Positions 616 to 48,829 of a DNA stretch of 64,000 bases are shown here, in pieces. The position numbers and the translations under genes are program-made. The notes below the pieces were generated by a model. It saw only the letters and a program-made list of their open reading frames with translations. It did no database searches and was not told the origin of the DNA. Numbering within the stretch: the first letter of the stretch is position 1; each line of letters starts with the position of its first letter. The DNA comes from Isoetes taiwanensis (Eukaryota; Streptophyta; Lycopodiopsida; Isoetales; Isoetaceae), in contig JAJEKV010000057.1 of assembly GCA_021234155.1 (NCBI GenBank), positions 3,503,821-3,567,820 of the forward strand, read 5' to 3'.

Positions 616-628
616 TTCTCCCCTCCTT
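616..628 (-). promoter_or_regulatory. Polypurine tract of the outer gypsy element
   Basis: Directly abuts the LTR. On the minus strand it reads AAGGAGGGGAGAA followed by the LTR start TGTGACG. The purine run and its position fit the plus-strand DNA primer of an LTR element. Confidence 0.85.
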
Positions 629-10700: not shown

Positions 10701-12927
10701 CATTGCAAGATCCTGTGGAATCTGCATCTGTGGTGGAGTTGGAACTCCGTTGGAACATCTTCCGAACATCCCGCAGGTAAATAACTGCCCCTTTGCATGC
10801 TTAAGCCTGGGAGCACTGTTTTTCACCGGATCCGGCATTTTTCTGCTTCAAACAGACCAATCCGGCTACTTAAACTTCAAAAATCATCAAAGAAGTTGCT
10901 CTAAATCAAACGCTTCAGAATGGAAGAATTTTACCTGCATTGCAGCACATAACCGGCAGAGAGCAAAATCTGCCAACAGGTCCCAAGACGGATTTAAACT
11001 TCAAGGCGGACAGGGAAGAGTTAACAAGGAAGAGTTAACCGGACAGGGAGAGATTTGACTGCAAAATCGGTGAAATATGTTGCAAAAATCGGTGAAATAC
11101 GCTGAAACAGCTTCAAATTCGATGATTTTGCGCAGGCACAGACACATCGACACGGCGACAAATCCAGCAGATGGAGACTCTACCTACACAAATTCTATCA
11201 TGTGGTCCCGCTGCAGGGAATCCAACGACTATAAGCTACTCCAGGTATCTGGGAGCAACGTCTATTTTCATACCTGTCAGATAATGGGAGCAACGTATAT
11301 TTTCATACCTGTCAGATAATGGCCGAACTATGACTATCTATGGCTAGAAGATACTTATTCTCGACTACTGAGTCGAGAATGGAGGCAGTTATTACATTAG
11401 TCGAGAATGGAGGCAGTTATTACATTAGTCGAGAATGTCATTAGTGATTACATTTATTTAATTTAGTCACTTAGTCATTAGATCAATTTAATTTATTATC
11501 TAATTAATTATCTAATTAGTTTAATTGATTATTGATTATATATTAATAATTAATACTTTTTTTTTTGGGAGACCCTTGACCCCTTTGCCCCTCCCGCTCC
11601 TCCTTTGCTCCTTTGCTCCTTTGCCCCTCCCTCCCCCATCCCTTCTTCCAACTAACTTATCCCCCACCCCCCTTCCCTCCCCCCCCCTTTTTTGCCTCTT
11701 TGCTCTCCCCCCTCCCCCATCCCCATCCCATCTTCCAACTTATCCCTTCCCCCTCCTCTTTTGCCTCCCCCTTCTTCCAACTTAACCCCTCCCTCCCCCT
11801 TCTTCCAACTTATCCTCTTTTGCTCTCCTCTCCCCTCCCTGCCCCTGCCCCTTCTTCCAAATTATCCCCTTCCCCTCTTCAACCTATGGCTCCTCCCTCC
11901 TTCTCATCCCACCCTTCTTTTTATCAAGTGTGTGATGTGTAATTCAGAAATTTTTTTTTGGGGTATGAGTCCCATTTTCAGTCCGAGTCCCAAAATTCGA
12001 GATTTGTCCCACTTTAATTAAATACGACTTGAATGTAAGTCACAAGGTAACTTCCAACCTTTTGTGCCTGTCTTCTTTTTAATTTGACCCATATAGTTAC
12101 CGAATCTGTTAAATTTTTGCATCTGGAAGTGTCTCAGAGAAAAAGCAAGAGCAGAATTCCAAGCAAAAGACGAAGTTTCCAGCCCTGCACGAAGAGATGC
12201 TGAAGCAGAAGTTTCCAGCCCTGCACCAAGAAATGCTGAAGCAGAAGTTTCCAGCCCTGCACCAACTCTGTCCATGCAGAAGACTACAAGGTTAAGCCCA
12301 ATCCTGCTTGTTTTTTACTACAATGGAGTTCTGGGTAGAAGTTATGACAAGAGTCAGTTACTACCCACTGCCAAAGAAGTTGGAATTAAGTTGATCACAC
12401 TTAACAGAACCAAGTGGGTAGTAACTAGACCAGGCTGGGCCGAATTCATAGATTGGTGCAGTCAGAATTTTCATATAGCACTTTGGTCCAGCCTGCAGGC
12501 TCAAAACTTGAGAATGATAGTTAAGGGAGCATTGATGAAACACAAGGACAAATTCAAGTTCATATGGAATCAGGATCAGTGTACCAACACAAATTTATTT
12601 AACAGTGGAAAGCCATTTTTTTTGAAACACCTCAAAAAACTCTACGACGAATTTCCAGGTTTCACAAAAGAGAACGTGCTTCTCATTGATGACAGCAGAT
12701 ACAAAGGGTACCTCAATGAGCCAAACACCATGATCTGTCCAAACAGCTGGAGCCCTGACATAGTAGATGGCAATTTCCTCATGAATGATCTAAAGGTTTG
12801 GCTTCAGGGGTTGCTGAAGGCAGGGAATGTGCAAAGTTATGTCGAAAGCAACAAAATGCTGAATATGTTTGACACTGAGAGTCAAATTTGTATTAATATG
12901 ATGAAAAAACATAGAACTAAAGCCTAG
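7794..12927 (+). CDS. FCP1/NIF-like HAD protein, catalytic Asp lost; interrupted by a TIR element
   Basis: Exon 1 (7794 on) encodes an N-terminal region rich in KSxDASG-type repeats. It is broken at 8247 by a 3.8-kb element and resumes at 12035, with a likely donor CAAG|GTAACT and acceptor GAGCAG|AATTCC near 12155. Exon 2 carries three 12-residue AEVSSPAPRNAE repeats (12168-12270) and then the HAD domain ending at 12927. That domain shows the strand-1 motif as LLVFYYNGVLG, ALWSSL as motif II and VLLIDDSRYKG as motif IV. In active FCP1/NIF phosphatases strand 1 reads DxDxT; here both aspartates are Y and N, so it is probably a non-catalytic fold. The inner element has a homologue (30798-30150) with the same loss. 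The first ATG is chosen; an upstream exon is possible (CCAG at 7783). Confidence 0.7.
8990..9440. repeat. Array of CTCGACTCGCGAGTCGAGA-type repeats
   Basis: Six or more imperfect units of about 60-90 bp with AAGGCCTTTCTCGACT, a small palindrome CTCGACTCGCGAGTCGA and AAACGCAGGTTTTAGGGGT. They look like subterminal repeats of the 3.8-kb element. Confidence 0.75.
9650..9880. repeat. 82-bp AT-rich tandem repeat, nearly three copies
   Basis: Units start TTTTTTAAATGGGACACTAT near 9650, 9734 and 9816; the third is truncated. Confidence 0.8.
9900..11339. other. Interior of the 3.8-kb element
   Basis: Overlapping ORFs occur on both strands at 10215-10838, but they are low-complexity and contain a direct duplication (GTGGAAATCTGTGGAAAGCT, 10570-10650). 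A 32-bp tandem pair lies at 11253-11320. No convincing gene was seen. Confidence 0.5.
11340..11445. repeat. Right-hand GTCGAGAATGG repeats of the 3.8-kb element
   Basis: Three copies of ATTAGTCGAGAATGGAGGCA-like units, opposite in orientation to the TCTCGAC array on the left side. Confidence 0.7.
11565..11930 (+). repeat. Pyrimidine-rich tract
   Basis: About 370 bp of CCCCTCCC/CTTCTTCCAACTTA repeats. The proline-rich ORFs over it are composition artefacts. Confidence 0.8.
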
Positions 12928-15410: not shown

Positions 15411-16002
15411 TGTTAGTCCTGTGCCTCCTGGTTCAGGACTATTCATGCATACGACGGACCAGGTCAAGCTCAAGGATCCACAGACAGGGATGGGTCAGCC
15501 ATCAAAGGCTCAGCAGAAGACCAAGCAGCAGACCACGCAGTCAAAGCCTGCGTCCGTCAACAAGAGGCGCCGCTCAGACAAGTGATGACCCGTCACCGCC
15601 CGTGTCAGCGTCAGCGTGATTCTAGGCATTTCAAGAGGCACCGTCAACATTCCTGCAAATCAGGCCTCCTTCCAGGAGTCGGCACCGAGATCAGTCCGAG
15701 TGTCTATATTGGGCCAGAGGCCATTGTACTATATATGAGTAGAGCTAGCATATGATGGCTAGATGAGTTTTGAGTCTTGTCTCTTTTCAGTCTTCTCTCC
15801 ATTGCGAGAGCTCATGTATGTTCATCATTGATATCAAGGAAGCATATCATTTTCCTCTCATTGTTCTTTTCTGTTCCATTTTCTTCTTCTTGTTCTTTTC
15901 TTGCAAATCCCGCGTGACATAGTCCCCCGGATTCTCCTGTTAGATCCAAGGGTCCTCACAGAGGGCTGTCTTGCAGGAGTTCCCGAACCCAGACCCCAAA
16001 CA
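15411..16002 (+). repeat. 5' LTR of the inner gypsy element
   Basis: 592 bp, TGTTAG..CAAACA. It has a TATA-like CTATATATG at 15729-15737. Its second half is almost identical to the 3' LTR, but its first 285 bp differ at many positions. Confidence 0.93.
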
Positions 16003-16020
16003 CTGTCGCCGCTGCCGGGT
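16003..16020 (+). promoter_or_regulatory. Primer-binding site, tRNA-Asp-like
   Basis: CTGTCGCCGCTGCCGGGT directly follows the LTR. It resembles the plant tRNA-Asp primer site (TGGCGCCGTTGCCGGG) with a few mismatches, as used by Tat/Athila elements. Confidence 0.6.
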
Positions 16021-16049
16021 CTGATTCGATTTTCCTTTCTTCTGTCGCC

Positions 16050-18350
16050 ATGTCTGTCCGAAACTTCACGCCAGAAGAACTTCTTTCCCAGACGGCGTCT
16101 CGCTTGGAGCGCCATCATCGAAGGGAAGCTGTTCGTGACATGTATGGATCTGCTTACGACATTGAGGGAGGCCACATTCGGTCTAGGGCTCAGTCGGCGC
16201 CACCCACCCCTCGTGTCATGTCTCGTCCAAATTCTCCGCCTCAAGCGTGCAAACATTGCTCACAGCCTCAGTCTCCTCATCACTATCAGGAGCCCTATCC
16301 GGCTCCAACTGCTCAACCTTACTTTCATACCCCAGAACATGCCTTCATCCATCACTCTTCTGGCCATAAGCCTCTGCTTTCACAACCATCATCTCCTAGG
16401 GTGGACAGGGATATCCACATGTCTCTTTTGCTCCTCCCCAGGAATTTCCGTTCCCTACCTTTCCCACCGCTCTTCCTGTTTACAATCTTACAGACCTCAA
16501 ACCCCATGATCAGGCACCTCGGCCACCCCTTCAGCAGGGTCTTTCCAGCACCATACCCCCTCCAACTCCACCTCAATATCCTCACTATCATGTTCCGGTC
16601 CAGCCCAGCACTTTTACCTCTACCTTTCAGACCCTTAAGCTGACTTATCCCACCTTTGGCAACATGAAAGGCAAACCTTTAGACCAAAGTGCTCAGGCCC
16701 ACATGGAAGAATTTGAAGCTCTGGCTGTCCTGAATGGTCATGCGCAACCTCAACTGAAATTCCACATCTTTTCCACCACATTGCGTGGCTCCCCACTGGA
16801 AACAAGATTGGTCCGAAATGAAAACTGCTTTTCTTTCTCACTATGGGACCACGGATGATGATCAACTTCATCTCAAGCAACTTAATGACCTTCAACAAGA
16901 GCCCGCAGATGTCTGGGATTTTGCGGGACCGTCTTCACATTCCTTTCGGCAAACTCAAGGAGTACCCCACACAAGAGCCGGATCTTGGTGCGGTTTCTCC
17001 AAGGACTTCCTCCATTTCTCGGACTCATGGTGAATACTGCGCCCAAAGACTTTGGAGCAGGCTATCGATCTTGTCAATCACTCCGTCAATGTTTCCTCCC
17101 GTGGCGTGGCTCTTCGGGGAGCTTCCTTTCATTCCACCCGTCATGGTTCCCCGGGCTGGCTGTTCAACCTCAACCGCGCCAATCCAGCGGCCTTGTCGGA
17201 TCACGGTGCCATATCTGCAAATATCAAGGCCACTTGGCGAATGAGTGCAACTCCACCAATGGCCCGCCTCATTGTAAACGATGCAATATGTGCAATCATG
17301 CCCGCGGAAGAGTGCACTTTCACTCATCCTACACCTTTCATAACAAGATGGTTTATCAAGTGCAAACAACACCTCAGCACCAATCGCCATATCAGCCGCC
17401 ACCACTGCAGGCGCAACCCAATCAACTCTATCAGCAACAGGAGCAACAACGGGGACCCAACACACGTCCTCCCTTTGATCCTTCGAAAGCTCAGTGTTAC
17501 CACTGTCAAGAATGGGGTCATACCACCACGGCGTGTCCTCAACTTCCACAAGTTCAGGTACAGCTTCCTGGCACAAATCAGACCACATCAGTCCGCCTCA
17601 CGGCTTACCAACTTTGGATTGCCAATGGCAAACAAGGCCCGCGTCCGGTTCTTCGGAAGCCACCTCGTGCACCTCAGCAATCACGCTATCAACCCGCTCC
17701 TGCAAATCAACCTCAGATGGATCAACAAGCACAGGAAGAAATTTTTCAAGCTCTCAATCCTCCAGTCCAGCCGTCCAATTGGGTTGGTTTAGTCTCACGC
17801 CAGACCAGGGCGTCACGTCCCTTAACCATTATTCCTAATGGCACGCAACCTACCTTTGCCGTCGACACAATTCCTCATGCAGAAGACAAACAGGTCCATT
17901 TTGCACCTGACTTGGAGAAACTCATGCCGAATGTCATGCCTAAAGTTCGCCAAAGCATTCTGAACCTCATGCAAGCTGCTGAAGGCCGCACGTTGGCTAA
18001 TGTTCATGCCACCACTCGAGCTCAACAAAGACAGGACGCACCTTACATGTCGCAACCTCCACGCTCTCAGCCATATCCAAATATCGCTGCTGAGGTAGAC
18101 CTACTCAAAGAAGTTGCTGCTTCCTTACCACGCACTCCCGCACCTATGGATCCCGCAGATCCTTTTTCTCATGTGCCTCTGGAACTCCAAGAGGAGCTGG
18201 AAAAAATCAAAATTCCTCTAAGTCTTGCAACGATTTTGAAACTCTGTCCTGCTCTCAAGGACCAGTTACCACTCCCGACTGTCTTGGTTGGGGCTGTTGC
18301 TACCTCTACACCCACGGTACATGCCATGGTGGGCAATCAGCAAGTCAACC
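16050..18350 (+). pseudogene. gag: gag of the inner gypsy element (frameshifted)
   Basis: Starts MSVRNFTPEELLSQ at 16050. A retrotransposon gag core follows in other frames (QPQLKFHIFSTTLRGS, then SEMKTAFLSHYGTTDDDQL near 16800). The long open part from 16985 holds two zinc knuckles of CX2CX4HX4C type (CHICKYQGHLANEC and CYHCQEWGHTTTAC) set in Gln/Pro-rich sequence. At least two frameshifts before 17000 prevent a full product. Confidence 0.85.
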
Positions 18351-21300
18351 ATGTTCAAATTGATGGAGGTAGCGCAGTTAATCTCATCACGGATAAACTC
18401 CGCAAACAAATGGGCATCAAACAACTCTATCGTGCCCCATATGACATCAAATTGGCCAATGGCCATATCCGCGAGACCTCAAAGGCGTCACGCCTCTTCT
18501 TCACATCAACATTGGTGATCTCGATTCCCCTTGGAATTTGGTGTTTGGAAGGCTGGAGAAGATCCGGTGATTATGAAATGTTGGTCGTGAGACCTTTTCT
18601 CCGCCAGGGCCAAGAGCATCCATTCTTGGGCCCGGGATCGGTTAGTCATCAACGTATGGTCACCTCAATGCCACCATGGACTTGGAAACAGTAAAATCAT
18701 TTCCGTTGACAATGCTGAACCCTCTCTCTCCGACACCGATTTTGAGGACGCCCAGAATATTTATCAAGTTCAGGCTCCACCTGCGAGTCTGCCTCTGTCA
18801 TCCTACCCCGAATATGCTGATCCTTGGGGAGAAATGACTCTTGAACAGGACCAGGCTGTGGCTGCTTTGCTTGACCCTTACCTGGCTCCTTGCAATCGAA
18901 TCCAACGTGTTGATCACTTTTCAGACGCTGAACCTCCTGCAGCTCCGGTAGATGTACACGCTATCATGAAGCAACCACTGCTTGAGGAAACTCAAAACCT
19001 CTTTTTTCACCATGCGGTATACGCATCCTCTGTTATGCTTCAACCTCCTGCTCATATTGTCCAGGACCGCGGTTATCCCCATATTCAGACTCGACGTCGA
19101 GATTGTGGGCGTAGGCAACAATCACCGTCCGAATTGTCGCCAATCTTCCGACACCCTATCGTAATGGGGCCGTCACGCTTTTCAAAAGTTCAAACACATT
19201 TTAAGCCGGAGCTATAGAGATCTTGAGGGAATCAACAAAACCTTGGGGAACTCACCATTCCTACCAAGTTCGATGCACGCCAGTCCGGCAAAGAACGATG
19301 CACGGCTCAACCCCAATTACCGATGATCGCGTCAAGGCGAAATTGACAAACTCCTTCTTTGCGGGTTTGATCTATGAGGTCAAACATTACGAGTGGGTGA
19401 GCTCCATCGTCATTGCACTCAAACACAATGGTAAGATCCGGCGTTTATGTGGACTACCGAAAACTCAATCGTGCCCGCGGGCGTGATCATTTTCCACTTC
19501 CCTTCACGGACCGGGTTACGGAAGAGGTTCTTGGACATGAGATGTACTCTTTCATGGATGGTTTTTCCGCTACAATCGGATCTCAATCAAAGAATCGATC
19601 AACTCAAGACTACCTTCACCACCCCGTAGGGCACTTTTTGCCTACAAGGTGGTTCCTTTTGGATTATCAAACTCTCCATCCACGTTTCAACGTATCATGC
19701 TCTCGTTTTTCATGATTTTATGAAGGAAAATCCCTTCTTGCAAATTTTTCAAGATGACTTCTCGCCTCTGACGTTCCATGGCTGACCATTTGGATAAATT
19801 GGAACTTCGTCTTTCGAAAAATGTGATGAGTCCGGCATTAGTCTCAATCCCAGAAATGCACCTTTTTCGTCACTTCGGTGTTCTGTTGGGACATGTGGTC
19901 AACAAAGCGGTATCACCACGGATCTGCGCCAAAATCAGGCAAGCGTGCTCAAGGCTCAAGCACCAGCCAATATCAAGGAAACACGCTCTTTCTTGGGTAA
20001 GGTCAATTATTACTCCACCTTCATTCCTGGACTAGCAGCCATTGCAGATCCCATTCATAAACTCACGGGTGATGAATCCACCTGGGCTTGGAATTCCCAG
20101 GCGGATGCTGCTTTCCAACAGTTGAAGCTATTGCTTACTCAGGCCCCGGTTCTTGTTCCTCCTCAATGGGACAAGCCCTTTCATGTCCATGTCGATGTCT
20201 CGGCCTTTGCTATTGGAGCTGTTCTTTCTCAAGAATACGATGCGCACACTGACAAACCAAACCGCTACGCCAGCCGGAAACTCAATTCTGCTGAACGCAA
20301 CTACTCTGCCACAGAGCGAGAAGCCTTGGGTTTAATTTTTTGCGTCCAACGCTTCCGTCACTATCTTTTGGGCAGTCAGATCAAATTCTTTGTTGACCAC
20401 CAGGCACTTCTTTATTTGATCAACAAATCTACGCCCACGGGCCGCATTGCTCGTTGGGTCCTCCTTCTGCAAGAATTTGCACCTTTTGAAATTGTTCACA
20501 AGGCCGGCAAATCTCATGTTGTCCCGGATTATCTTTCACGCATCCACACAGATGATCCCTCCACTGGGGTCTCAGACGCCTTTCCTGACGCTCAACTCTT
20601 TCTGGTCACGGCAACACCTCATTGGTTTCATGACTTTCAGCAGTATCTCCTCACAGGTGCTCTTCCACCAGAGGACGCCACGCTCTCTCCAGCCAAGCGA
20701 CAATCCCGTCGCCATCAATTTCTCCGCGAGGTCCGTGACTACACCATGGTTGCAGGCCATCTTTACAAAAAGGGTAAGGATACAATCCTTCGACGCTGTG
20801 TTCTCCCTCATGAGGTCCCAGATATTGTTCGAGAACCCCATGAAGGGCTCGGTGGTGGTCATTTTCATGGAGACACCACGGCACGCAAAATCCTTCTTGC
20901 TGGTTATTTTTGGCCCACGCTCTTCAAAGACGCTCACGCCCACGCCCGCACGTGTGATGCTTGCCAGCGTGTGGGATGGCCCACGGCCCGTGACACTCTT
21001 CCCTTGACGCCGGTTGCCACGCCACTTCCCTTCAGCAAATGGGGAATGGATTTTGTGGGACCCATCGATCCTCCTGCGCGGCACACCCGTGCCCGCTACA
21101 TTCTGGTTCTCACTGACTACGCTACCAAATGGGCGGAAGCTTGCGCACTTCCAGACAACACTGCGGCCAGCACAGCCAAAGTCATCTATCAACAAATCAT
21201 CACGCGATTCGGCTGCCCCACGGAGCTGGTCAGTGATCGTGGTGTCCATTTTATCAATCACACCATCAAGGAGCTGACGGATTATCTCCTGATACATCAT

Positions 21301-21954
21301 CACAAGAGCACACCTTACTATCCTCAAGGGAATGGTTTGGCTGAAAGCACCAACAAAACTCTGGTCACAATTCTCAAGAAAATTTGTGACGCTTCTCGCA
21401 CTGACTGGCAAAACAAGCTTCCTACTGTTCTTTGGGCTTACAATACTTGTTTCAAAATAGCTACAGGTCACACCCCTTTCAAATTGGTTTATGGACAAGA
21501 AGCTCTCATGCCGTTTGAATACATACTTCCAACACTCCGTTTTCAACTGGCTACTGCCCATAATCCGCCTGCTGCACTCAAAGAAAGGGTCTATCAATTG
21601 GAACAGTTGGATGAACTTCGAAGGGATGCTTATATTCGTGTTCTTCATGGACAACGGTTGCAAAAATCTCTACATGACAAACGTATGAAGACAAAAACAT
21701 TCAAAGAAGGAGATTTGGTTCTTCTTTATGACTCTCGGTACAAAAATTTTCCGGGTAAACTAAAGTTTCGATGGCTTGGCCCTTATCAAATTGCCCAAGT
21801 GGTTAAACCCAGCGTTTTCCAGCTGGCCGAATTAGATGGAACTCCATTACCTACACTGATTAATGGCTTTCGCCTCAAAACATTTCATACAACAGAAAGT
21901 GCACATCAACAAACAGATGCTGTTCCAGACACGAACACAACAGATAGTGACTAA
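18351..21954 (+). pseudogene. pol: pol of the inner gypsy element; integrase part open
   Basis: The protease active site appears as IDGGSAVNLI near 18358. RT (19400-19900) is shifted several times; recognisable parts are VDYRKLNRARGRDHFPLPF, the palm region around SFMDGFSA and a catalytic motif reading FQDDF. From 19945 a 669-residue frame is open through RNase H (HVHVDVSAFAIGAVLSQE, FVDHQALLYLINK) and integrase. The integrase has a zinc domain (GGGHFHGDTTA, TCDACQRVG), DDE residues in GMDFVGPI, VSDRGVHF and PQGNGLAESTNK, and a C-terminal domain without chromodomain. It is probably not autonomous, because RT is broken. Confidence 0.9.
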
Positions 21955-22094
21955 ACCAGCGGCATATTTATATTATAGGTGGATTTTTTTTTACAAAATG
22001 TGGGCGCAGCCCAGCTATTTCCGCTATGGGCACTGCCCTATATACAAAAACGGGCTCAGAGCCCTATCTACTAAGTCCTAAGAAGAAAAACCCT

Positions 22095-22361
22095 CTACTC
22101 CGGGTTTGGAGCAGAAGTGATGCGCAGGATGTGGTAGAGGTTCTGCTCAGGATCCCAGCGAAGGTGCAGAACCACCTCCATCCCGTTGGTCTTCGGATCG
22201 GGATGTTCAGCCATCCCGGCACACCAACCGTCCATTCTCAGGCCACGATTGTGGCAGCGCCAGAGGTCCAGACAATTCATCTTGCAGGTAATCCACTCCT
22301 GACAGTTAGTGGGCATAGTGCAGTTCTCGTTCAAACCAGCAGCAGCCATGCTGAGCGCCAT
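22095..22361 (-). CDS. Antisense ORF downstream of integrase (aORF-like), Cys-rich
   Basis: A minus-strand ORF of 94 codons from the first ATG (22379), or 88 from the ATG at 22361, ending at 22095. The TATA-like sequence CTATATAAG (22399-22391) would place transcription start near 22368, favouring the second ATG. The peptide has six cysteines (ENCTMPTNCQ, TCKMNC, DLWRC, GWC) and ends PEQNLYHILRITSAPNPE. Antisense ORFs between pol and the 3' LTR are known in the Tat lineage (for example Retand). The product's role is unknown. Homology to those aORFs was not tested. Confidence 0.5.
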   Translation of the reverse strand: MALSMAAAGLNENCTMPTNCQEWITCKMNCLDLWRCHNRGLRMDGWCAGMAEHPDPKTNGMEVVLHLRWDPEQNLYHILRITSAPNPE

Positions 22362-22390
22362 CGGATGCCTTCGTTTCACTCCCGGTTCGT

Positions 22391-22399
22391 CTTATATAG
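22391..22399 (-). promoter_or_regulatory. TATA box of the antisense ORF
   Basis: CTATATAAG on the minus strand, about 30 bp ahead of the ATG at 22361. A good plant TATA match inside an element otherwise transcribed from the other strand. Confidence 0.5.
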
Positions 22400-22893
22400 C
22401 CAACTGAGGAACTCCTTGTCGACATGGACCAATCACACAAATCGCCAACGTGTTTGCAATGCAAGGCTGTTTGTAAAATGAGACTCTTTTCTCCCGCCGC
22501 ATATTTAGCCATGGTACCTTCTGACACATTCCTTTTAATGATATCCCACTTCGAGTTGCCAGCATTAAATGCCATTTCTTCTTTTCACGCCCGTCGAACA
22601 TTAATGTGTGTCCTTTGCCCACCTGTCACATCCCATCATTCTCTCACGCCTCATCTCCACCGTTCATTCCTTCTCCATTTGTTGTTTGGGGACTTAGCCA
22701 AATTTTTGCCTCTCAATCGCCTCCTTGGCATCTTTCGACACCTGGCACCATCAACGGTTGCAGCTTCGCCCTTATCATACCCCTTCACCCACCTTTGCGC
22801 GCCCTAAACCTTTTCGTCTCTCTGCGCCTTCGTCTTTTGTTCTCTGCTCTCCGCCTTCTTCAAACAGTTCCTTCTATTCCGACGCTTTTCGCC

Positions 22894-25870
22894 ATGGCTG
22901 CCCCCAAACTTTCTACACTTCAAGCTTCTGCTCCAAGGGATGCGACTCTTTTTGGGTCTGTGTCTTTCTCGACGCCCACCTTTCGAGAGGCCCTTGTTGG
23001 TCTGAGTCGGGAAGTTGCGGAACGCCACAAGCTTTACGAATTTTCACAAATGGAGCTCCCGGCCCCAAATCCGGCGCAATTGCAGCAGTTCATCGCACAC
23101 ATCGTCAACAGCCCGGAAGGACCATTTTACTTACTCAGCATTTGATTTCTGAGGTATTCCACATCCCTTTGCAAAAACCTTCTGTCTCTTGGGCTGCTTT
23201 ACAGGACATGGACGTCACTCAGTTTGGCGCTATTGCTTATCAAGCCAACCAACATCGCCTCACAAATATTGCCAAACCCCATGAGACTTTTGTGAAGTTT
23301 CTGTGGCGAAAATTGCTTGGGCATTCCATTAAGAACACCCACATCAATAAGCCGTTTTTATAATATGGTCATCAACGCCATTCACTCCACTCTGCATGTC
23401 GATTGGCCTCGGCTTTTTATTCTCTGAGTCTTCTTCAAAGTAGACGCGCGTTCGGCTACCCCCCTCCTCTGTCTCTGAAATTTCCGTGGGTGGCCATCTT
23501 CAGGCCCTCATTCGTCATTATCTTCCAGTTCTTGAGAGCCCTTCCACTTCCCATACCTCCACTCAGCGCTCTCTGCATTCCCAGCGTCAAACTCAACAAG
23601 CTGTACCTTCACGCCAAACTTCCCCTCGTCTGTTCAACATCCGACCCGCGCATGTCCTTTGTCTCCTCTTCTTCCTCGAGGCCACGCCTTCCAATTCCGT
23701 CATGCCTCTCAACAATCTCGGACAAAGGCAGACGGGGCCCTGCACCTCTCCATCCTCGGCGGCTCGTACAAATTCCAACAAGATGTTCAAGCGGCTGCCA
23801 TGCGGCTACATGCATCGAGGAGGCTCTCATGGCCGGTGTTCAGCGTCCACGGAGGCTTCGATCTTTGTTCAAAGAGACCTTCAAGCTGCCACGCCCCATG
23901 TTCAAACCACGGAAGCCCAACTTCAAGAAAAAGCACGCCTCTATTACGTGCCCGTATAGATCTCACCCGGTGCTTTCGGGATCGGACCCGCCTACTTACG
24001 GATCAAAGCGCAGCTCCAAACCGAAATTCAGGACTTATTGGAACAGAACAAGTCCAAAGATACCCTTCTGAGTGACAAGGAGAAACACATTGCTAAGCTA
24101 GACACCTTGTACTCAGAGCTTTGTGACAATTACAGCACTCAAGTTCAAAATCTCACTGAGCGTGAAGCTCGACTCATCTCCCTTGAAGCTCAGCTTTCCA
24201 CACTCACCAATCAGTTAACGTCCCTCCAGACTCAGCTTTTGGAGGCTCAGAAACAAAAGGTCATCGATGACGCGGAGATTGCCACGCTTCGCCTCCATAC
24301 TCTGGGGCAATCCTCTTCACATGCCACGCTTCCTGGTAAACGGGTCCGTGATCAGCCCCGTCTTTTGTTAGAAAAGGAGCATCGGATCCGTGACCTTGAA
24401 CATCAGCTCCAGCAAGCAGTTCAATCTGCTGAGGAAGCCCAAACCAAACAGGAGGGATATCTTGACATTGCCACCAACATCCCTGGGACTTCTCTACTCC
24501 TTCCAAACTATCTTGACTATGTGGTGGCCCGGCGGCATCTCTTTCTTTTTGAAATGGTACGCGGCCAATGGCAATGTTCATCAACAACCACTCAAAAGTA
24601 TGGACTTCCTTCGGATCCGGCGGATCTTTCTATAGAAGACAAGGGTTTATTTTGTGCACTCTTAGTCTTTGATCAGCTCACGGTTGAAGATCCCGAATTA
24701 GTCATCTTCCGAAGTTGTTCAAATTTTTCATGGCTTATGTTTTTCATGACTTCTACCCGGGCGGATCTCCGTGATAAATTCCCGATGAGGCCCATCGTGT
24801 TTTTTCGAGGCAACTCCAATGCTTTGGGTTGTTATCACCAACCAACAAATATTTCCGGGATCCCTTTCGGTCCGGACTTTTGAACAAGAGTACATGCCCG
24901 AATTGGCTCAAAGACTTACCTCTCGTGGCGGGTTGAAACGTTGGAACAGGTAAACAAAAATCCGGGCGCACCACGATGATCTTGAGTTTGCTTTCGATTT
25001 ATATGCAAGCACTTGGGAGGCTACAATCAACTCCGTGGCCTTCTGGAAAGCAAGACCATTCCCACGGGTTGGGTCAATCCTCCTGTCTATCAATTACTCT
25101 CTACTTCAGAATGGGACCATTGGTGTCGTGCTCTTGATCAAAATCTTGTTCAAGCATTCAGGGACATGGCTCACAAACCCACGCACTGGCATGATTCCCT
25201 CTCCATATGCTTCCTTAGGAGCCCCTCCCCCCCGGTTCCTTTCTTCTGATTGGCGTCTTCCCTTTTGGACGAAGGTCATGGATGGCCACGCTGGGTCGAC
25301 TCCGCCTCAGATCTCCACGGATCTCCGGTGGGATCCCCGATTTGTCAGACGCTCCAATTGGGAGGATAATGCCACTTTGGACACTACTGAAAATTGGATT
25401 TACATCGGTAATGAGCGTGGTTGGCAAAAGCCTGCTGATGCTCTTCATGGTCTTGACACCTTCTTGCAGAATGCCGCCACCTCACCAGATCCTTGATCTG
25501 CCGCCAAAAGCGTGTTTTCGTGGCTCTCAAATGCATCCTGGTCAGCTCTTTAAATAGGCAGCGTCCAATCTTTCACTGCAATCCGAATGCCAGCGTCAGT
25601 GCCTTCGGTCTTCAAACTTGCCTTCTCATGGAGTGCCAGTTTGTTCCTTCGGCTGCCCATGCTGCCCTGGAAGACATGGTGCGCTCTCACTTCCTCATTG
25701 AGGCCCATCCTGCCCTAGGGCTCAACACCCCTGACGCTCTTCAAACACGCCAGGACCTCATTGCTCATTACCATAATGGCGCCCGACCTCATTCCCGTGA
25801 GGATCACTTTCCGACTGCTGGTTTCCCGCCTTCGGAAGCACTTCCTCCTTTTCTTCAGACTGAGTGTCAT
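22894..25870 (+). pseudogene. Post-pol ORF of the inner gypsy element, frameshifted
   Basis: Begins MAAPKLSTLQASAPRDATLF at 22894. It moves between frames near 23120, 23400 and 24040, and again after 24883. The middle (24038-24480) is a strong coiled coil (heptads such as LISLEAQLSTLTNQLTSLQ). After it come SLLLPNYLDYVVARRHLFLF and FPMRPIVFFRGNSNALG, then WDHWCRALDQNLVQAF in another frame. No known domain was recognised. It is on the sense strand between integrase and the 3' LTR, where env-like or extra ORFs occur in Athila/Tat elements. No transmembrane segment was seen, so env is not supported. Confidence 0.6.
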
Positions 25871-25884
25871 TTGGTGGGGGGGAG
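25871..25884 (+). promoter_or_regulatory. Polypurine tract of the inner gypsy element
   Basis: TTGGTGGGGGGGAG immediately before the 3' LTR. Confidence 0.8.
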
Positions 25885-26477
25885 TGTTAGTCCCAGGCCT
25901 CCCGGTTCGGGAATATTCATGCATCCTGACGGACCAGGTCAAGCTCAAGGATCCACAGCGGGCATGGGTCAGCCATCAAAGGCTCGCCAGAAGACCAAGC
26001 AATGCACCCACGCATCAAAGCTGCGTCCGCCCAACAAGAGGCGCCGCCAGACAAGTGATGACCCGTCACCACCCGTGTCAGGTCCAGTGATTCTAGGCAT
26101 TTCAAGAGGCACCGCCAACATTCCTCGCAAATCAGGCCTCCTTCCGTGAGTCGGCACCCCAGAGATCGGTCCGAGTGTCTATATTGGGCCAGAGGCCATT
26201 GTACTATATATGAGTAGAGCTAGCATATGATGGCTAGATGAGTTTTGAGTCTTGTCTCTTTTCAGTCTTCTCTCCATTGCGAGAGCTCATGTATGTTCAT
26301 CATTGATATCAAGGAAGCATATCATTTTCCTCTCATTGTTCTTTTCTGTTCCATTTTTTTCTTCTTGTTCTTTTCTTGCAAATCCCGCGTGACATAGTCC
26401 CCCGGATTCTCCTGTTAGATCCAAGGGTCCTCACAGAGGGCTGTCTTGCAGGAGTTCCCGAACCCAGACCCCAAACA
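25885..26477 (+). repeat. 3' LTR of the inner gypsy element
   Basis: 593 bp, TGTTAG..CAAACA, followed by the TATAT target duplication. Confidence 0.93.
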
Positions 26478-41483: not shown

Positions 41484-42708
41484 CCCAATCGAGGTCGGCC
41501 ATGGCCAGCTGGGCAGTCTGTGTGACATAAGGGCAATTCTGCATGAAGTGCCCGGGCCGTATACACCTGTAACATGCTTTGTCTCTGGGTAGCTGTTCTC
41601 GGGCCTCTTTGGGAATAGACTGTAAGAGGTTCCGAACTTCCTTACCGACATTGTTCGGCTTGTCGGGCATGTTGAAGGTGACTTTCTTTTCCTGGCGGCC
41701 ATTAGAGTTCTGTTGAGAGGGCCCCGGACTCAGTGAACGGTCCTTGTAAGGTGTGTACGGGCGTGGCTGCGAGTAAGAGGCGGGGCGCTGGTACTGGTTT
41801 CGTGGTGCGTCCTCTTCAAGGCTCAATGCGTTAGCCTCAGCCTCAGCAACTGATTTCGGGTCTATGGCCTTAACCATTCGTTTAATTGATGGGGCCAACC
41901 CTTCAATATAGCCCTCTACCGCCCTCTTTTCATTCATTCCTGGCACATACAGCCTCAAGCGCATGAATTCATCAGTGTAGGCCTGAACTGACATACCCTT
42001 CTGCTCTAACCTGTAGAAAGTCTGAATCTGTTGGCATTTGTACGCACGGGGCACATAATGCGACTTAAAAGCTTTGGCAAACATTTTGAACTTGCACCTG
42101 CTTCTGTCCAGATGCTTGGCTCGAGCATAGCCCTTCCACCAAATACGAGCAGCTCCTGTAAGGTTTGTGGTGGCAACCTTTCCTGTATCCTTTTCTGTCA
42201 TGCCATAGGATTTTCCAAACTCCTTCATCTCGTCCAACCAGGACTCTGCATTCAGCCCGTCTCTAGATTTCCCATTAAACTGGGCCAATTTCCTATTTTT
42301 CCATATACTGGTTATGGCCGTGTCAACCGTCTTACGGTACTCTTTGTCCCGGCACTTTGCATGGTCACCAGATGATACAGACGACTCAGAGGACACAGAA
42401 GTGGCCGATTGTGAGGACGTGGCACTATCGTTAGAGGAACTCCGACGACGTTTGGGACGGTGCCTCCTTAGTGCGGGTACAGGGGCCGGTTCAGGTGCAG
42501 GTGGCTGCTGTGGTGGTGGACTTGGCGGTAACAGAGGTAACTCCGGCCCATCTTCCTGCGCATGCTGCGGTGGGTTGGCATTCAACACATAAGCTTGCAG
42601 CTCCACTAACTGCCGCTTGATCAACAGGAGTTCCTATTCAGGCATTAATCTGCTAGCACCTGAGGGTGTCTGCCACGAGGCGTTACGTGCACCGTCTATA
42701 TTGACCAT
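41484..42708 (-). pseudogene. gag: Chromovirus gag, cut at its end by the DNA transposon
   Basis: Starts MVNIDGARNASWQTPSGASR at 42708. An in-frame TAG (42634-42636) is codon 25. After it comes a Pro-rich, then Ser-rich linker, and a retrotransposon gag core (LDEMKEFGKSYGMTEKDTGK, FYRLEQKGMSVQAYTDEFMR). A basic region and one zinc knuckle, CYRCIRPGHFMQNC, close it. The frame runs to 41484, where the DNA transposon begins. Deleting that transposon and one copy of its 4-bp duplication continues the frame directly into protease. Confidence 0.9.
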
Positions 42709-42987: not shown

Positions 42988-43476
42988 CTAGGGCTGCGCA
43001 AAAGGGTAGAGGATGGAATAGCGGACGCTTTCCCGTACGGCCCTTACTACCTTATAGCGAGCCCATGCCTGGATAATGACATGCTGGTAGTCCAAGGTGG
43101 GACTAATGATGAGGAGATTAAAAAGATCTCGTAGCGCAAAGAAAATTTGCCATAAATGATCATTAGCATCGGCATAAGCTTCATGCCTCTTCTTCTCCCA
43201 GTAATTCCAAGTTCGTCGAAGAGTTTGTTGCAGATGTTCGAAGGCACGTTCTCGGAGAATGTTGACTACTTCCAATCCTTTAGCTGGATCATAGGACTCA
43301 TCTTCCACAACAAGTTCCCCTTCTTCGGAGTCATCATCTCGATCTGGGTACTCACCATATCGTTGGCCGTAATCTTGGTCGGGAGGTCCTGGATCGTCCC
43401 TTCGTATGTCATTGGTGATTCTTTCCTCGATCTCTGCGAGATCGTAGTCTGCAAGATGGCAAGAATGAATATACAC
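42988..43476 (-). CDS. Accessory ORF C of the outer gypsy element
   Basis: Open frame of 162 codons. A consensus acceptor (CATCTTGCAG) just before DYDLAEIEER at about 43450 suggests that the real start lies in an upstream exon. The sequence is acidic at first (YPDRDDDSEEGELVVEDESY), then helical (AFEHLQQTLRRTWNYWEKKR). No domain was recognised. It lies between ORF B and gag on the same strand. Nothing disabling is seen inside it. Confidence 0.5.
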   Translation of the reverse strand: MYIHSCHLADYDLAEIEERITNDIRRDDPGPPDQDYGQRYGEYPDRDDDSEEGELVVEDESYDPAKGLEVVNILRERAFEHLQQTLRRTWNYWEKKRHEAYADANDHLWQIFFALRDLFNLLIISPTLDYQHVIIQAWARYKVVRAVRESVRYSILYPFAQP

Positions 43477-43661
43477 TGTGGAACAATTTCTTATACCCTA
43501 ACTCTAATAGATACAAAGAAGTATCATGGGAAAACAACAATTTAATTGTATGCAACGATACAATAATCATAAGAGAAGGGCACATATATTGTATGATGGC
43601 TAAAAAAATGCCAAATCAAAATTTACAACTATATGCAGTACAAGATGCGTAATAAAAATGT

Positions 43662-45092
43662 CTAAGAACTAGGGTTCTCCTCTTCGTCCATAGGCTGAGG
43701 AGGTGGTGGCGGCGGTCGATGACGTAACAAAGTCACCCCTGGGTCCACTGTGGCAGCTGCAATGGAGGCAACCTCTGGCGGATAGGCGGCAGCCAATGGG
43801 GCCGCCGTAAGAAGTTTCATACTCATCCATGGTGCAATATCCTGCCCCAATGCAGTGAGGGCAAGATCCCGTCGGATGAGTACGTAAGTAAGCGTGCGAT
43901 AGGGAAGCTTCTTATGCCCTGCCAATGTGGAAAGAGCACGGAGGTTCCACCACGAAGCCTCGGCCTCTGGCCCTAAGTCCTGGGCTACAAAAAGGACCTG
44001 CCCCTGCCGAAAAGCTGATAGGAAGAAGCGGGTAAGGTGATTCCCTAACGCCTCCCCCTGTGGCGACCTTCTTATCTAGGTCCATAGGGACCTCTTCTTC
44101 CTTGAGTTCCTCCTGTTCTTCGCTCAAATGAGCAGGGTTATGGTAAAGATCCTCTCCCTCCTCATCCGATCCGGAGGGAACTTCGACCATATTAATATTT
44201 GGGACATGAGGTCCCATAGCTGTAAAGGCATCCGGTGAAGGCTGAGATGGCGGATCCTGTAACACCAGTTTGCGAAGCCGTAACAAAGTTTCGGCCGGCT
44301 CTATGGTCTCATGATGAAATTGGAGTAGCTGCTGTACTTCCTGGGGAAGGTCAATAGGAGTAAAGTCAATGAAATCATCCATACAGTACTCTGCTAACTC
44401 ATAGAGTACATGGTCCTTGCGTCGGCGCTTAAACCCGGCCACCATGTGATAAGTCCAGATGATATCATCCAAGAGAAGATACTCTTGCCCTTGGTGATAC
44501 ACAACTAGAAGGGCGTCTAGTCCAGACAAGCGTGCAGCTTGTTCCCGACGTGGTGGCATCTCCTTTGCCAGCTGCTTCCAACGGACGAAGTCACCCATGC
44601 CTATGTGCTCATCCTCTTCCTCATCGGAAGGCTCGGAAAGTTTGCCTTTCTCTGCCGGCAATGTCTCATCCTCAACATACTGATCCATGAGGATGGCGAG
44701 TGCAAAGGCAACTTCGAGATATTGTCGCCCTGGTGCTGAACAACTGGCGGCTGTTTACCCGATCTAAGTTTGCCCTTGAGCACTTCATATGCGTGGGTGT
44801 CACCCCCAAGCATTTCTCGGACTACATCCCGTTCTAGGTACAACTGGAGAGGTTCCCCAAAAGGAATACACAGAGGGAGCATCTCCTCTGTGTAAAACTG
44901 TAGGAATCCGGCATAATCTGGGTGCCGCTGCATATTAGAGATGAGGTCAAGGCGTTGACGTAGAAAGGGCTGTAAAAGGTCAAAGGGCACCTGTGGATCC
45001 CAATGCTCTCCATCCTGGTACCATGCAAGTAGATCGGCGGCAGCCATGGGCGCTGGAAGAGAGGAGGGAGGAAGATAGACAGATATAGACAA
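43662..45092 (-). pseudogene. Accessory ORF B of the outer gypsy element, two frameshifts
   Basis: The likely start is MAAADLLAWYQDGEHWDPQV at 45047 (the first ATG in frame is 45092). Frameshifts near 44735 and 44045 separate three open parts of about 115, 220 and 120 codons. Two acidic tracts are present: LSEPSDEEEDEHIG and SGSDEEGEDLYHNPAHLSEE. Between them lies a helical region (LLVVYHQGQEYLLLDDIIWT). The last part includes KLPYRTLTYVLIRRDLALTA and ends in a Pro-rich tail. No family was recognised. Acidic tracts occur in histone chaperones, and the neighbour encodes an H3 fold, but that link is speculation. Confidence 0.5.
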
Positions 45093-45248: not shown

Positions 45249-45763
45249 CTAAGGACGCTCTCCCCGAATCCTGCGGGCCAGGGCCAAATCCTTTGGCATT
45301 ATAGTGACTCTCTTTGCGTGGATAGCGCAAAGATTTGCATCACCAAAAAGTGCCACCAAGTAGGCTTCTGCAGCCTCTTGAAGTGTAAAATGGCAAAAGT
45401 CTGGAAGCGGAGGTCGGTTTTGAACTCTTGGGCTATCTCCCGAACTAACCTTTGAAAAGGCAGCTTCCGTATCAGGAGTTGTGTGGTCTTCTGGAACTTA
45501 CGGATCTCCCGTAAGGCCACGGTGCCGGGTCTGAACCGGTGGGGCTTCCTTGGTGGAGCAGGGTTGGGAGGCGGGCCCCTTTGCCGTGGTATCGTCTTGC
45601 CCCCAACAACAGGACGGGGCCGGGAAGCATCCACCCGCTCCTGCCTCCGGCTGGAACTCACGTTCTTCCCAATAGCTCCGACAGTCTTCAACTTCTCCTT
45701 GTACTGGCTGCCAGACTTATGGGCTACGGCTTTCCTCCGGTGTTTAATGGGCGTCCTGTCCAT
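45249..45763 (-). pseudogene. Histone H3-like protein encoded in a retrotransposon (one frameshift)
   Basis: From residue 73 the frame reads [20 protein letters not shown], then [20 protein letters not shown] and TDLRFQ, almost identical to canonical H3 through helix alpha-N and alpha-1. A 1-bp deletion near 45390 shifts the rest. In the next frame [20 protein letters not shown] and [20 protein letters not shown] continue the fold to RGERP and a stop at 45249. The tail before the fold is about 72 residues against 36 in H3, is basic and Pro-rich, and keeps only hints of H3 (GGKTIPRQR). There is no CENH3-type longer loop 1. It is in frame with ORF A upstream, separated by one TAG. It lies between primer site and gag of a chromovirus. 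H3 normally forms nucleosomes with H4. Confidence 0.9.
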
Positions 45764-45805
45764 CTGGTTTGGCCCCTTCTCAATCTCTGGTCCCCCATTA
45801 CCCTG

Positions 45806-46498
45806 CTAGTCCTGCTGCTCTTGTCGGGCCTTCTCCTCTTTTTCCCTTTGGATTCTTTCCTGCTCCTCCCGGAACTCTCGAGCTCTCCTGAGGTCGTCTT
45901 CAACCTCAGCGTACCGTCGTTCTACAATGCGGCGAAGGAGTTCAGCGTGGTATCGATTGGGTCGCTGGTTCATATCAATCTGGATCGTCGTCAAGTAATC
46001 CAGACTGATGTCAGGAATCTCTCCCCACGTGAAGCTCTGGGAGGCTTCATGCCACTCATATGGGGGAAGCTCGATTGCCCTGCCATCAATGACGGCGACT
46101 CCATCTCCTAAATATCTATATTCTCGACCTCGAGCCGCCGTATCGGCTCGTTCCACCTCCCTGCGGTCATCCTCCCTGGCCAAGTTCCGTATACGGTCGG
46201 CCTCTGTTCTTATGTCCTCCTCCTCAGTGTGTCCCTCACATTCAGGAGGGTAAAATTTGATCAACATCATGACCAAATCAGGTTGCTCGACTATGGTATA
46301 AGGAAGCTGTCGGAGATTCAACCTAACCAAAAACGATATCGGATAGGGTATCCTAGCGTCGTCAGCAAATCTGTTTACCAACTCATCCAGAAGTATGTCA
46401 ATCAAGGCAAGGTCAGTAGCCATGTGCTGCGCGATTAAGGCATAAATCTGGGCTATGGTGAGGGTAGCGGGGTCCACGGTACTCTTTTTGGTGGCCAT
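45806..46498 (-). CDS. Accessory ORF A, in frame ahead of the H3-like domain
   Basis: 230 codons from MATKKSTVDPATLTIAQIYA. It has an N-terminal helical domain (LIDILLDELVNRFADDARIP, LVRLNLRQLPYTIVEQPDLV), a charged middle, YRYLGDGVAVIDGRAIELPP, and a long C-terminal coiled coil rich in Arg/Glu (ending EKEEKARQEQQD). The TAG at 45806-45808 is followed in the same frame by 14 codons and then the H3-like start, so an ancestral fusion of ORF A with H3, or readthrough, is possible. No family was recognised. It is the first ORF after the primer site. Confidence 0.55.
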   Translation of the reverse strand: MATKKSTVDPATLTIAQIYALIAQHMATDLALIDILLDELVNRFADDARIPYPISFLVRLNLRQLPYTIVEQPDLVMMLIKFYPPECEGHTEEEDIRTEADRIRNLAREDDRREVERADTAARGREYRYLGDGVAVIDGRAIELPPYEWHEASQSFTWGEIPDISLDYLTTIQIDMNQRPNRYHAELLRRIVERRYAEVEDDLRRAREFREEQERIQREKEEKARQEQQD

Positions 46499-47254
46499 AA
46501 CTATGGCGCTGAGGTCTAAGGCGGCAGACAGTGAGGCGCTTGCGGTTAGGAAAACGATAGGGGAGGCGCTAGGGGTAGAAAAGGCGATAGAGAAAAGCCA
46601 AGGTGGAAAACAGGGTCGGGTCCGGCAGCTATGGCGGGCGTCAGACCTAGCGGGCGGAGGCGCTGTTAAACAAAAAAAAAGTTAACGGCCGCCTACCCTT
46701 TAAATTTTTAAAAGTTTTTTTTTTTTTTTTTTTTAAATATATTTATACGGCGGAAATACGCGCGATTATACGGTCGGGTGCCGACAGCATTATACGCGTT
46801 TCTACCGCGACTGTAAGTCGATAAAAAGCAAGTGGCGCCCGAGTTGACTTTCGGGGCCCCTCCTTGACTCCTTTCCGCCTGTTAATGACCCTCCTAGGGT
46901 ATCTGGGTATGCCCGATCCAGTCGATAAAAAGCAAGTGGCGCCCGAGTTGACTTTCGGGGCCCCTCCTTGACTCCTTTCCGCCTGTTAATGACCCTCCTA
47001 GGGTATCTGGGTATGCCCGATCCATTGGAACCACTTTCGCCTTCATCTGAACTACCTACAAAAAGTTATAGCCCCTCCAAACTTGGGTCCTCCAGTTGCC
47101 CTAAACCTCTTAAAACTTACAATCCACTACATCAACCTAGCACAAAACCAAACATCAAAGAGCTAAACATTCACACTAGCTTAAGCTCCCACCTAACTAC
47201 TGAACTAACGAGTTAGGGTTTGGTCAGTGCTATGATTCGAAAATGCGAAATCAC
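46499..47254 (-). other. 5' leader of the outer gypsy element
   Basis: No ORF of note. Contains a poly-T run (46716-46734) and the 104-bp tandem duplication at 46817-47024. Confidence 0.6.
46817..47024. repeat. Perfect 104-bp tandem duplication in the leader
   Basis: 46817-46920 and 46921-47024 are identical as read (both begin GTCGATAAAAAGCAAGTGGC). The lack of differences implies a recent duplication compared with the LTR divergence. Confidence 0.95.
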
Positions 47255-47266
47255 GGCTCGATACCA
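47255..47266 (-). promoter_or_regulatory. Primer-binding site, initiator tRNA-Met type
   Basis: On the minus strand TGGTATCGAGCC, three bases after the LTR end. It differs from the usual TGGTATCAGAGC by a short indel/mismatch. Confidence 0.75.
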
Positions 47267-47269
47267 CTT

Positions 47270-48829
47270 TGTGGCGCTCCACGAACATATCGGCGGCTCG
47301 AACGTATACATACGGGGACTTTCCCCTCCCATGGCAACCAACTCGCCATGAGCAGGGCCCTCCGTCTAACTCGGGCCATCTATAGAGAGAGGGTCATTCG
47401 GCCCACGCCTTCAATGGGGCTCCTACGTCGCGGAAGTGTGAATACAAGGTTAGCACACAGCATAATCATATCATAAAATACCACCACGAAGGGTGGCACA
47501 TCCATCCAACTGACAACAACAAAGAAGATGCATTTGATACTAGGAAAAACACCCAAACCCCTGGTTCTACCCCGGCTCAGACTCCATGAGGATCGACTGA
47601 CGGCTAGGTCTCAAGAGGTCAGCAGACCGAATCTTGGCATGGCGCTGGCTGGCATAGAACATCGGCTAGGATTGTCCATTCCATCCGCCCCTCCTGTGCA
47701 CACTTTGCAGATGAGTCGAATCATGCTATGGCATCGCTATAGCCTTCCGGAGACGCAGACTCAAGGTATCACCCTTCAAGCCTACTCTAGGGTTCATGAC
47801 GCCCCGGTCCGATGAGGCAGGTCAGGGAAGTGTCCCCTTCCAGGATCACAGTGGTTCCATGGGTGAGCTAGAGAATACATGCCGCATCAGCGACCCCCGC
47901 ATCCATACACGACTTACTCACCCGAAATCTACTCAAAGTACAGGGTGCCCCATACGGGTCACACCTCTGCATCCAGGGAGTGCCAGACCCATACCCGGCC
48001 CTCTACGTGACCGGCTATCAGGCCTAGCCCACTGTAGGAGTCCCAGGAGCCGTGTATGTTCGTGCAAGACCCCACCCCCACTTCACCACTGCGTCCCTTC
48101 TCTGGTGCTAAGCCATTCCATAGCATCCACGACTCAATGGTCTCTTGTGCACAGGCCGCTACAATTGGAAATTAAAGGAGCTACTAGGAGCATACTAAAG
48201 CATCTGGCACAGAGGTCTCTACCCCCCCTCTAATCCCTGCTTTATGGATGTTTAACAGAGCTACTTTCATAGATTCATCCATCCATTCATAATAACCATA
48301 ATCCATAATTGAAATGTAAATCCTAAATATCAAAGAAGGGTTAATCCTAAGTAAGAACAACCAGAGAAGACTCAAAGAACTTAACTGAAGCGCTAGCCTT
48401 AAAGATATCAACTAGATTATCCAATAACCCGAGTTTCGACTTGATCCATTGTCATGAGGCGCCTCCATCTCTCAGTAATCTGGTGTTCAGCAACAACTGG
48501 GGTGTTCAACAACAGTTCCAGGTACTTGGGCGCTCAGCTGCTCCCCTTCCTGGCTCGATTTTGGGGTAAAATGGGGGTAGTGATCCACCTTGACGGCCCA
48601 AGTTAGCATTCCCATGCTGGCCAATCGAGTTTGGCCATGTGGCACCTTCCCAAGTAATCAATTAACTTGATTAAACTAATTAGATATTAATTCCTTAATT
48701 ATAGGTTATTATCCTTAATAATTAACTAAATTAATCCCTTTTAGGTCAACCCCCTAGGTTACAATACCCCATGGTGGCGTACCGTCAGTATATTTATACG
48801 TATATCGTATAAATACTTGGAACGTCACA
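47270..48829 (-). repeat. 5' LTR of the outer gypsy element (1560 bp)
   Basis: On the minus strand it begins TGTGACGTTCC and ends GCGCCACA. It is bounded by the primer site at one end and host sequence at the other. A TATAAATA motif (48798-48791) lies only about 30 bp inside the start, which would leave a very short U3, so the true promoter is uncertain. Confidence 0.9.

Follow-up and report, generated by a model that had tools for sequence, protein, structure and literature searches.

The 64,000-nucleotide stretch of the Isoetes taiwanensis genome analysed here (contig JAJEKV010000057.1, positions 3,503,821 to 3,567,820; from here: the window) contains a chromodomain-bearing Ty3/gypsy retrotransposon that reads on the minus strand in the order LTR, primer site, ORF1, H3, ORF2, ORF3, gag, pol and LTR. 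The 5′ LTR (TGTGAC...CACA; 1560 bp, 47270-48829) was recognized by its match to the start of the 3′ LTR, of which positions 1-615 fall within the window and the remainder beyond it; the two differ by 13 mismatches in 590 compared bases and by two short gaps. Three bases inside the LTR end lies the primer-binding-site-like sequence TGGTATCGAGCC (47255-47266, minus strand), which we take to resemble tRNA-Met, and the polypurine tract AAGGAGGGGAGAA (616-628, minus strand) adjoins the 3′ LTR. The leader contains a perfect tandem duplication of 104 bp (46816-47023). The gag gene (41484-42633; Ty3 capsid, Pfam Retrotrans_gag) includes a zinc-knuckle-like stretch scoring below the Pfam cut-off. Protease, reverse transcriptase, RNase H, integrase and chromodomain were identified by Pfam and ORFs at 1159-4755, in a segment that contains stops. 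The order gag followed by PR-RT-RH-INT is that of a Ty3/gypsy chromovirus, interrupted in this copy by a nested transposon and by stops. The chromodomain at the integrase end matched Pfam Chromo at 8e-8 and, judged by eye, lacks the first and third cage aromatics.

The nested transposon is foreign to the element and sits at the gag-pol junction, where it cuts gag. It is a DNA transposon of 36.7 kb (4756-41483) with perfect 26-bp inverted repeats (GGGTGAAAGC...) and no obvious target-site duplication at its ends. It carries an ORF for a NIF-type phosphatase according to Pfam (12097-12927) and, by eye, a ULP1-protease-like ORF near 13224. A second LTR element lies within it on the plus strand (15411-26477), with LTRs 94% alike and TATAT at both flanks.

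Between primer site and gag, the element possesses a block of further reading frames on its own strand. ORF1 (45809-46498) has 230 codons and ends in a long charged helix; it is separated by a TAG codon (45806-45808) from the H3 stretch, which extends over exactly 515 bases of the minus strand from an ATG at 45763 to a stop at 45249. A basic tail or linker region with a pI of 11.9 (45551-45763) precedes the first part of the fold with alpha-N, alpha-1, loop 1 and the start of alpha-2 (45389-45550). The remainder of alpha-2, alpha-3 and the stop codon follow at 45249-45383. One base is missing at H3 residue 91 (deletion site 45384-45388), splitting the fold into two pieces. The stop-to-stop frame at 45299-45805 matched the Pfam Histone family with E 3e-17 and an H3.3 in the PDB with E 3e-27. 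Over both pieces, 84 of 98 comparable fold residues are identical to canonical plant H3, and the window copy retains all 20 Arg and Lys residues found between H3 residues 37 and 135. The sequence-only reading of this locus, which had placed a fold from alpha-N to alpha-3 with a single 1-bp deletion between primer site and gag, on the element's strand and within clear LTR boundaries, was thus borne out by the Pfam and PDB matches, the missing base, the LTR pair and the PBS- and PPT-like sequences. A protein search with H3 returned, by name, ordinary H3s and H3 doublets (best 120 of 7988 scored; 8 examined). Neither a poly-A stretch nor flanking repeats longer than 7 bp were found from 80 bp upstream to 200 bp downstream of the H3 stretch; flanking target duplications had been named in the earlier reading as a sign of a separate pseudogene insertion. 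The pre-gag block contains a single short hairpin, away from H3.

H3 is the only one of the pre-gag ORFs with a Pfam match above the cut-off; ORF1, ORF2 (about 460 codons at 43662-45047, in three pieces owing to two frameshifts in this copy) and ORF3 (42988-43497) belong to no known family by this criterion. Protein searches with ORF1 plus tail and with the middle piece of ORF2 returned nothing at E 0.001, and comparison of ORF1 and ORF2 to the PDB by sequence gave weak single matches only. The single-sequence structure models of both were poor; for ORF1 the mean pLDDT was 47.5, and its last helix alone was confident. Viral contigs contained no match to gag, RT or ORF1 and one match to H3 on a contig of 4 kb, and no match to ORF1 was found among prokaryote contigs. 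As orphan proteins, ORF2 and ORF3 are acidic in parts by eye and under purifying selection; as acidic neighbours of a histone they may be candidate chaperones. Pyrimidine-rich stretches ending in YAG occur at 46569, 45053 and 42994, upstream of ORF1, ORF2 and gag. These three, compared to about 1.4 expected from the base rate of the strand, are possibly splice acceptors, a weak indication drawn from sequence.

The whole genome (1.658 Gb in 1110 contigs) was searched for further copies. With the H3 stretch as query, 6846 first-look candidates were obtained, of which 150 matches were scored, the window included; this is a similarity-biased share of the candidates, and the samples taken from it were picked by hand. 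The scored matches are 64-100% identical to the query, and each aligned at least its residues 21 to 138, corresponding to most of the tail and the fold. From the better half of this list, 20 copies were picked by hand and examined in stretches of 9.9 kb, as found, with none of them assembled or mended. The three H3 pieces were followed by ORF2 in all 20 long copies. ORF1 preceded H3 in 19 of them, the exception (L020) having a piece of LTR at this place. Within the 9.9-kb stretches, ORF3 was matched in 16 of 20, gag in 15, an LTR in 17 and the leader in 15. No long copy showed a different order of the pieces (n = 20); in L011, ORF2 lies about 5.5 kb away from its usual place. Hence, the expectation that the H3-like frame would sit at the same place in other copies was confirmed, and the data support that H3 is not a stray pseudogene and belongs to the element's own gene set.

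The alignment of these copies also revises the structure of the encoded protein. The TAG of the window copy corresponds to Q in all 19 other copies spanning the site, and the apparent start Met to T (15 copies), A (2), G (1) or I (1), never to Met; these sites were read from the alignment by eye, L022 does not span them, and an automated motif scored only 10 of the 19. In 17 of the 20 long copies, the best match to ORF1 shares its frame with the fold, and 9 of 20 have at least 300 open codons in the frame ahead of the fold. The 1-bp deletion of the window copy is absent at that place from the 20 other long copies, and other frame breaks inside the fold were observed in 3 of 20 (L010, L015, L022). 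Because the TAG is replaced by Q and no Met is present in the 19 copies, the apparent tail is the middle part of an ORF1::H3 fusion. The family protein is therefore ORF1::H3, of about 420 residues, with H3 at its C-terminal end and without a start codon of its own, and the view of a stand-alone H3 with a tail of double length had to be abandoned, its Met and the TAG having been seen in this copy only. Of 21 copies, 10 contain the motif ARKS, which is like the sites around H3K9 and H3K27; in the window copy and the majority of its closest relatives, AHKS stands at this place. The idea of a family lacking K9-like sites, suggested by the missing ARKS in the window's tail, was dropped in view of these other copies.

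Selection was assessed by the Nei-Gojobori method, with a codon bootstrap and only those codons that tblastn read in frame. From pooled pairs, which are not independent, the fold gave a dN/dS of 0.080 (0.048-0.129) in 21 copies, compared to 0.196 (0.167-0.233) for gag (15 of 21 rows cover 70% of the gag codons), 0.246 for the tail, 0.180 for ORF1, 0.131-0.211 for the pieces of ORF2 and a noisy 0.132 for ORF3, where dS was 1.2. Shifted-frame controls yielded 1.72 for the H3 fold and 1.23 for gag. The fold value reached or exceeded that of gag in 0 of 1000 bootstraps and that of ORF1 in 2 of 1000; it did so for the first ORF2 piece in 63 of 1000, so that no clear difference separates the fold from that piece. 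Addition of 12 more divergent copies (33 in total) gave 0.076 (0.052-0.110) for the fold, 0.067 and 0.090 for its first and second part, 0.243 for the tail and 0.175 for ORF1. Decay of dead copies should raise such values. The H3 fold is under strong purifying selection and the linker evolves faster. This comparison across copies, proposed with the earlier reading, together with the many copies supports the main assertion of that reading, namely that an H3 fold is part of the gene set of a Ty3/gypsy element. Tests on the window copy alone agree with the multi-copy estimate and are superseded by it: 2.1% of neutral simulations of the 14 fold substitutions were as conservative, 2 of 2000 shuffles matched the coding bias of the tail, and the chance that the 14 fold changes arose after insertion was P 8e-6 to 0.007.

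Of 28 contact positions, 14 have the canonical residue throughout the readable copies and 13 vary in one to five copies; position 41 is F or Y in the 33-copy set. E105 and T107 are replaced in 33 of 33 copies. Within the window's lineage, E77 is present in 33 of 33 copies and A125 in 32 of 33. A FastTree protein tree of the 33 copies, rooted with one canonical H3 and leaving the distant lineage described below aside, resolved at least three groups; since it has a single canonical H3 as outgroup, it cannot serve as a test of a single capture.

Copies were also approached from the side of gag, for which 107 matches were scored out of 17156 candidates in the whole genome. A by-eye comparison of the gag and H3 lists placed 20 of the 107 (the window copy among them) no more than about 5 kb downstream of an H3 match with the same orientation; for three more, the distance was up to about 10 kb. 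The remaining 84 supplied 20 copies, chosen by hand and mainly from the upper part of the list, in each of which a 2-kb stretch around the expected place of H3 was inspected. H3 was detected in 12 of these 20 gag-anchored copies, in 11 cases in the first 2-kb stretch and once in the adjoining stretch; in this twelfth carrier (L048/L064), ORF3 follows H3 and ORF2 is unmatched. Two copies (L061, L062) have ORF2 within about 0.5 kb of the LTR and no ORF1::H3. In two more (L049, L058), ORF2 lies at the end of the stretch with no H3 in the preceding 1.9 kb, and they probably lack ORF1::H3 too, judging from these partial sequences. The stretches of L044, L045, L046 and L056 allowed no call on H3 either way, and the stretch adjoining L045 (L066) was without a match as well. 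Full-length copies without H3 had been considered a potential refutation of an element-borne gene; carriers form the majority of this sample, and 2 of 20 do lack the gene and 2 of 20 probably so. The two copies without ORF1::H3 indicate that the gene is dispensable at least in cis. Such copies may derive from carriers by loss and rely on other copies for the gene, or they may represent an older form.

The 11 carriers detected in the first 2-kb stretch come from a deeper lineage. Where ORF1 was matched (10 of 11), it is 31-51% identical to that of the window; 2 of 11 have a tail that can still be recognised, and the fold pieces are 66-95% identical to those of the window. For 11 distant copies, consisting of 10 first carriers and L064 (L051, with an unalignable fold start, was left out), the fold had a pS of 0.73 and a pN of 0.097, with a ratio of 0.039 that is only rough, synonymous sites being near saturation. 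Four of these 11 have at least 300 open codons in the frame ahead of the fold. Several distant copies have the canonical D77 and Q125, compared to E77 and A125 in the window's lineage. The homologous ORF1 ahead of H3 makes one old capture of H3 followed by divergence the best account. Repeated capture may have occurred, given the canonical residues at positions 77 and 125 in distant copies and a tree with one outgroup. As a separate observation, gag is 88-93% identical among L047-L064 though ORF1 is only 31-51% identical to that of the window, as if the pre-gag block and gag-pol had been exchanged between lineages. L051 combines a 90% identical tail with a 47-51% identical ORF1.

Taken as a whole, we lean towards the following explanation, which we consider somewhat better than even. 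A chromovirus lineage would have captured an H3 coding sequence, presumably once, and joined it in frame behind ORF1, giving the fusion protein that was then kept through many rounds of transposition. The H3 domain would pair with host H4 and use histone chaperones to enter nucleosomes or to dock on them, and the long charged helix of ORF1 would act as a tether, tying the RNA-protein particle or new copies to chromatin. Such tethering could aid the choice of integration sites or resist silencing. Mostly ordinary H3 surfaces on the fold next to a fast-evolving N-terminal neighbour are expected if H3 meets H4 and chaperones or DNA while ORF1 serves the element. A more specific possibility, which we put forward tentatively and consider less probable, is that ORF1::H3 enters nucleosomes and writes a private chromatin state, serving together with the integrase chromodomain as the address or shield of the element. 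Since ARKS occurs in some copies and AHKS in others, the window copy among them, either imitation or evasion of silencing marks by the element is conceivable. The 230-residue extension could hinder incorporation into nucleosomes.

Alternatively, the fold might be conserved as a decoy or adaptor that binds H4 or histone chaperones and stays outside nucleosomes. The large N-terminal protein fused to H3 would fit such a role, as would the replacement of E105 and T107 in every one of the 33 copies and the variability, in one copy or more, of half of the 28 contact positions; yet these positions are canonical in most copies and the window copy has kept 20 of 20 fold Arg and Lys residues, which puts this explanation on the unlikely side. 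We regard a role of the H3 domain in compacting or packaging cDNA or RNA of the element, either within the particle or in the pre-integration complex, as rather improbable. The basic tail (pI 11.9), the fusion to an element-specific ORF1 and the position ahead of gag would agree with such a function, but gag has its own zinc-knuckle-like stretch, even if below the Pfam cut-off, and H3 alone is not known to wrap DNA without H4.

That H3 is a passenger, a retrocopy caught by chance and carried neutrally, draws on the broken state of the window copy, on the existence of copies without H3 and on gene capture, which is common in plant LTR elements according to the available parts of two studies (PMC7264820, PMC13317346). 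A fold dN/dS of 0.07-0.09 against 1.7 in the shifted frame and the conservation of the fold in the distant lineage despite saturated synonymous sites make this very improbable. Some of the 150 matches beyond those examined at length might be something else, such as a multiplied host H3 gene flanked by elements by chance, but for the copies examined this is refuted by ORF2 following the fold in 20 of 20 and ORF1 preceding it in 19 of 20, and it has hardly any probability left. A separate insertion of H3 into the window copy after its landing, to which the copies without H3 might point, can practically be dismissed, as it is refuted by H3 preceding ORF2 in 20 of 20 other copies and as the surroundings of H3, from 80 bp upstream to 200 bp downstream, contain neither poly-A nor flanking repeats longer than 7 bp, with no more than one short hairpin elsewhere in the block.

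How does an element-borne H3 with a possible chromatin role compare to known systems? It shares with CENH3 an H3 fold and a fast-evolving N-terminal part. CENH3 has a longer loop 1 and an altered start of alpha-2. Loop 1 of the element's H3 is spaced as in ordinary H3 and its FKTDLRFQ is H3-like, which may speak against a CENH3. The element's protein has a histone fold with the H3 signature, but no standard N-terminal tail and no start of its own (19 other spanning copies). The element agrees with plant chromoviruses of the Ty3/gypsy group with a group II chromodomain, as this group is defined in the consulted part of PMC3350952, in its LTRs, PBS, PPT, gag, PR-RT-RH-INT and a chromodomain without the first and third cage aromatics; it differs from them by the 4.6 kb that separate primer site and gag and hold ORF1::H3, ORF2 and ORF3. 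Additional sense ORFs and captured host genes are known from plant LTR retrotransposons, according to the portions of PMC7264820 available, but most extra ORFs are located between pol and the 3′ LTR. Sorghum genes captured by LTR elements are enriched for chromatin terms, as stated in an excerpt of PMC3726574. None of the main texts of PMC7264820, PMC13317346 and PMC3726574 contains the word histone, and no retrotransposon-encoded histone was found in the open-access literature, subscription papers lying outside the scope of this search.

By analogy, the closest working parallel to ORF1::H3 may be the bracovirus histone H4 (CvBV-H4), likewise a parasite-borne core histone with an extended N-terminus (PMC9145170 and PMC5423620, each in part). 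In the passages available from PMC9145170, its fold shows about 87% identity, it has 38 extra N-terminal residues and it was found in host nucleosomes. It differs in being an H4 of a polydnavirus, with no fusion to another ORF described in these passages (PMC9145170), and in its demonstrated chromatin role, whereas a role of ORF1::H3 is proposed by analogy only. In fungal hAT transposons, a captured H3 transcript was multiplied by the transposon as well; these are DNA transposons, and the copies in P. fijiensis are mostly truncated, with all but the original inactivated by RIP, while P. tritici-repentis has potentially active H3-carrying hAT copies (PMC6710886, as far as its text was accessible). 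A Helentron also contains histone sequence within a transposon, but its histone gene fragments are broken (PMC4067079, part of the text).

Retrotransposons are usually described as being controlled by host chromatin; here, a core histone is carried by such an element and preserved by selection. The fusion of this histone to another protein of the element and its strong conservation in many copies suggest a parasite that makes a chromatin protein acting on the packaged DNA of its host. If ORF1::H3 works in chromatin, it would offer a direct way to study how heterochromatin is selected or evaded by mobile DNA, and if this is true, a retroelement would join the parasites that use histones against their host.
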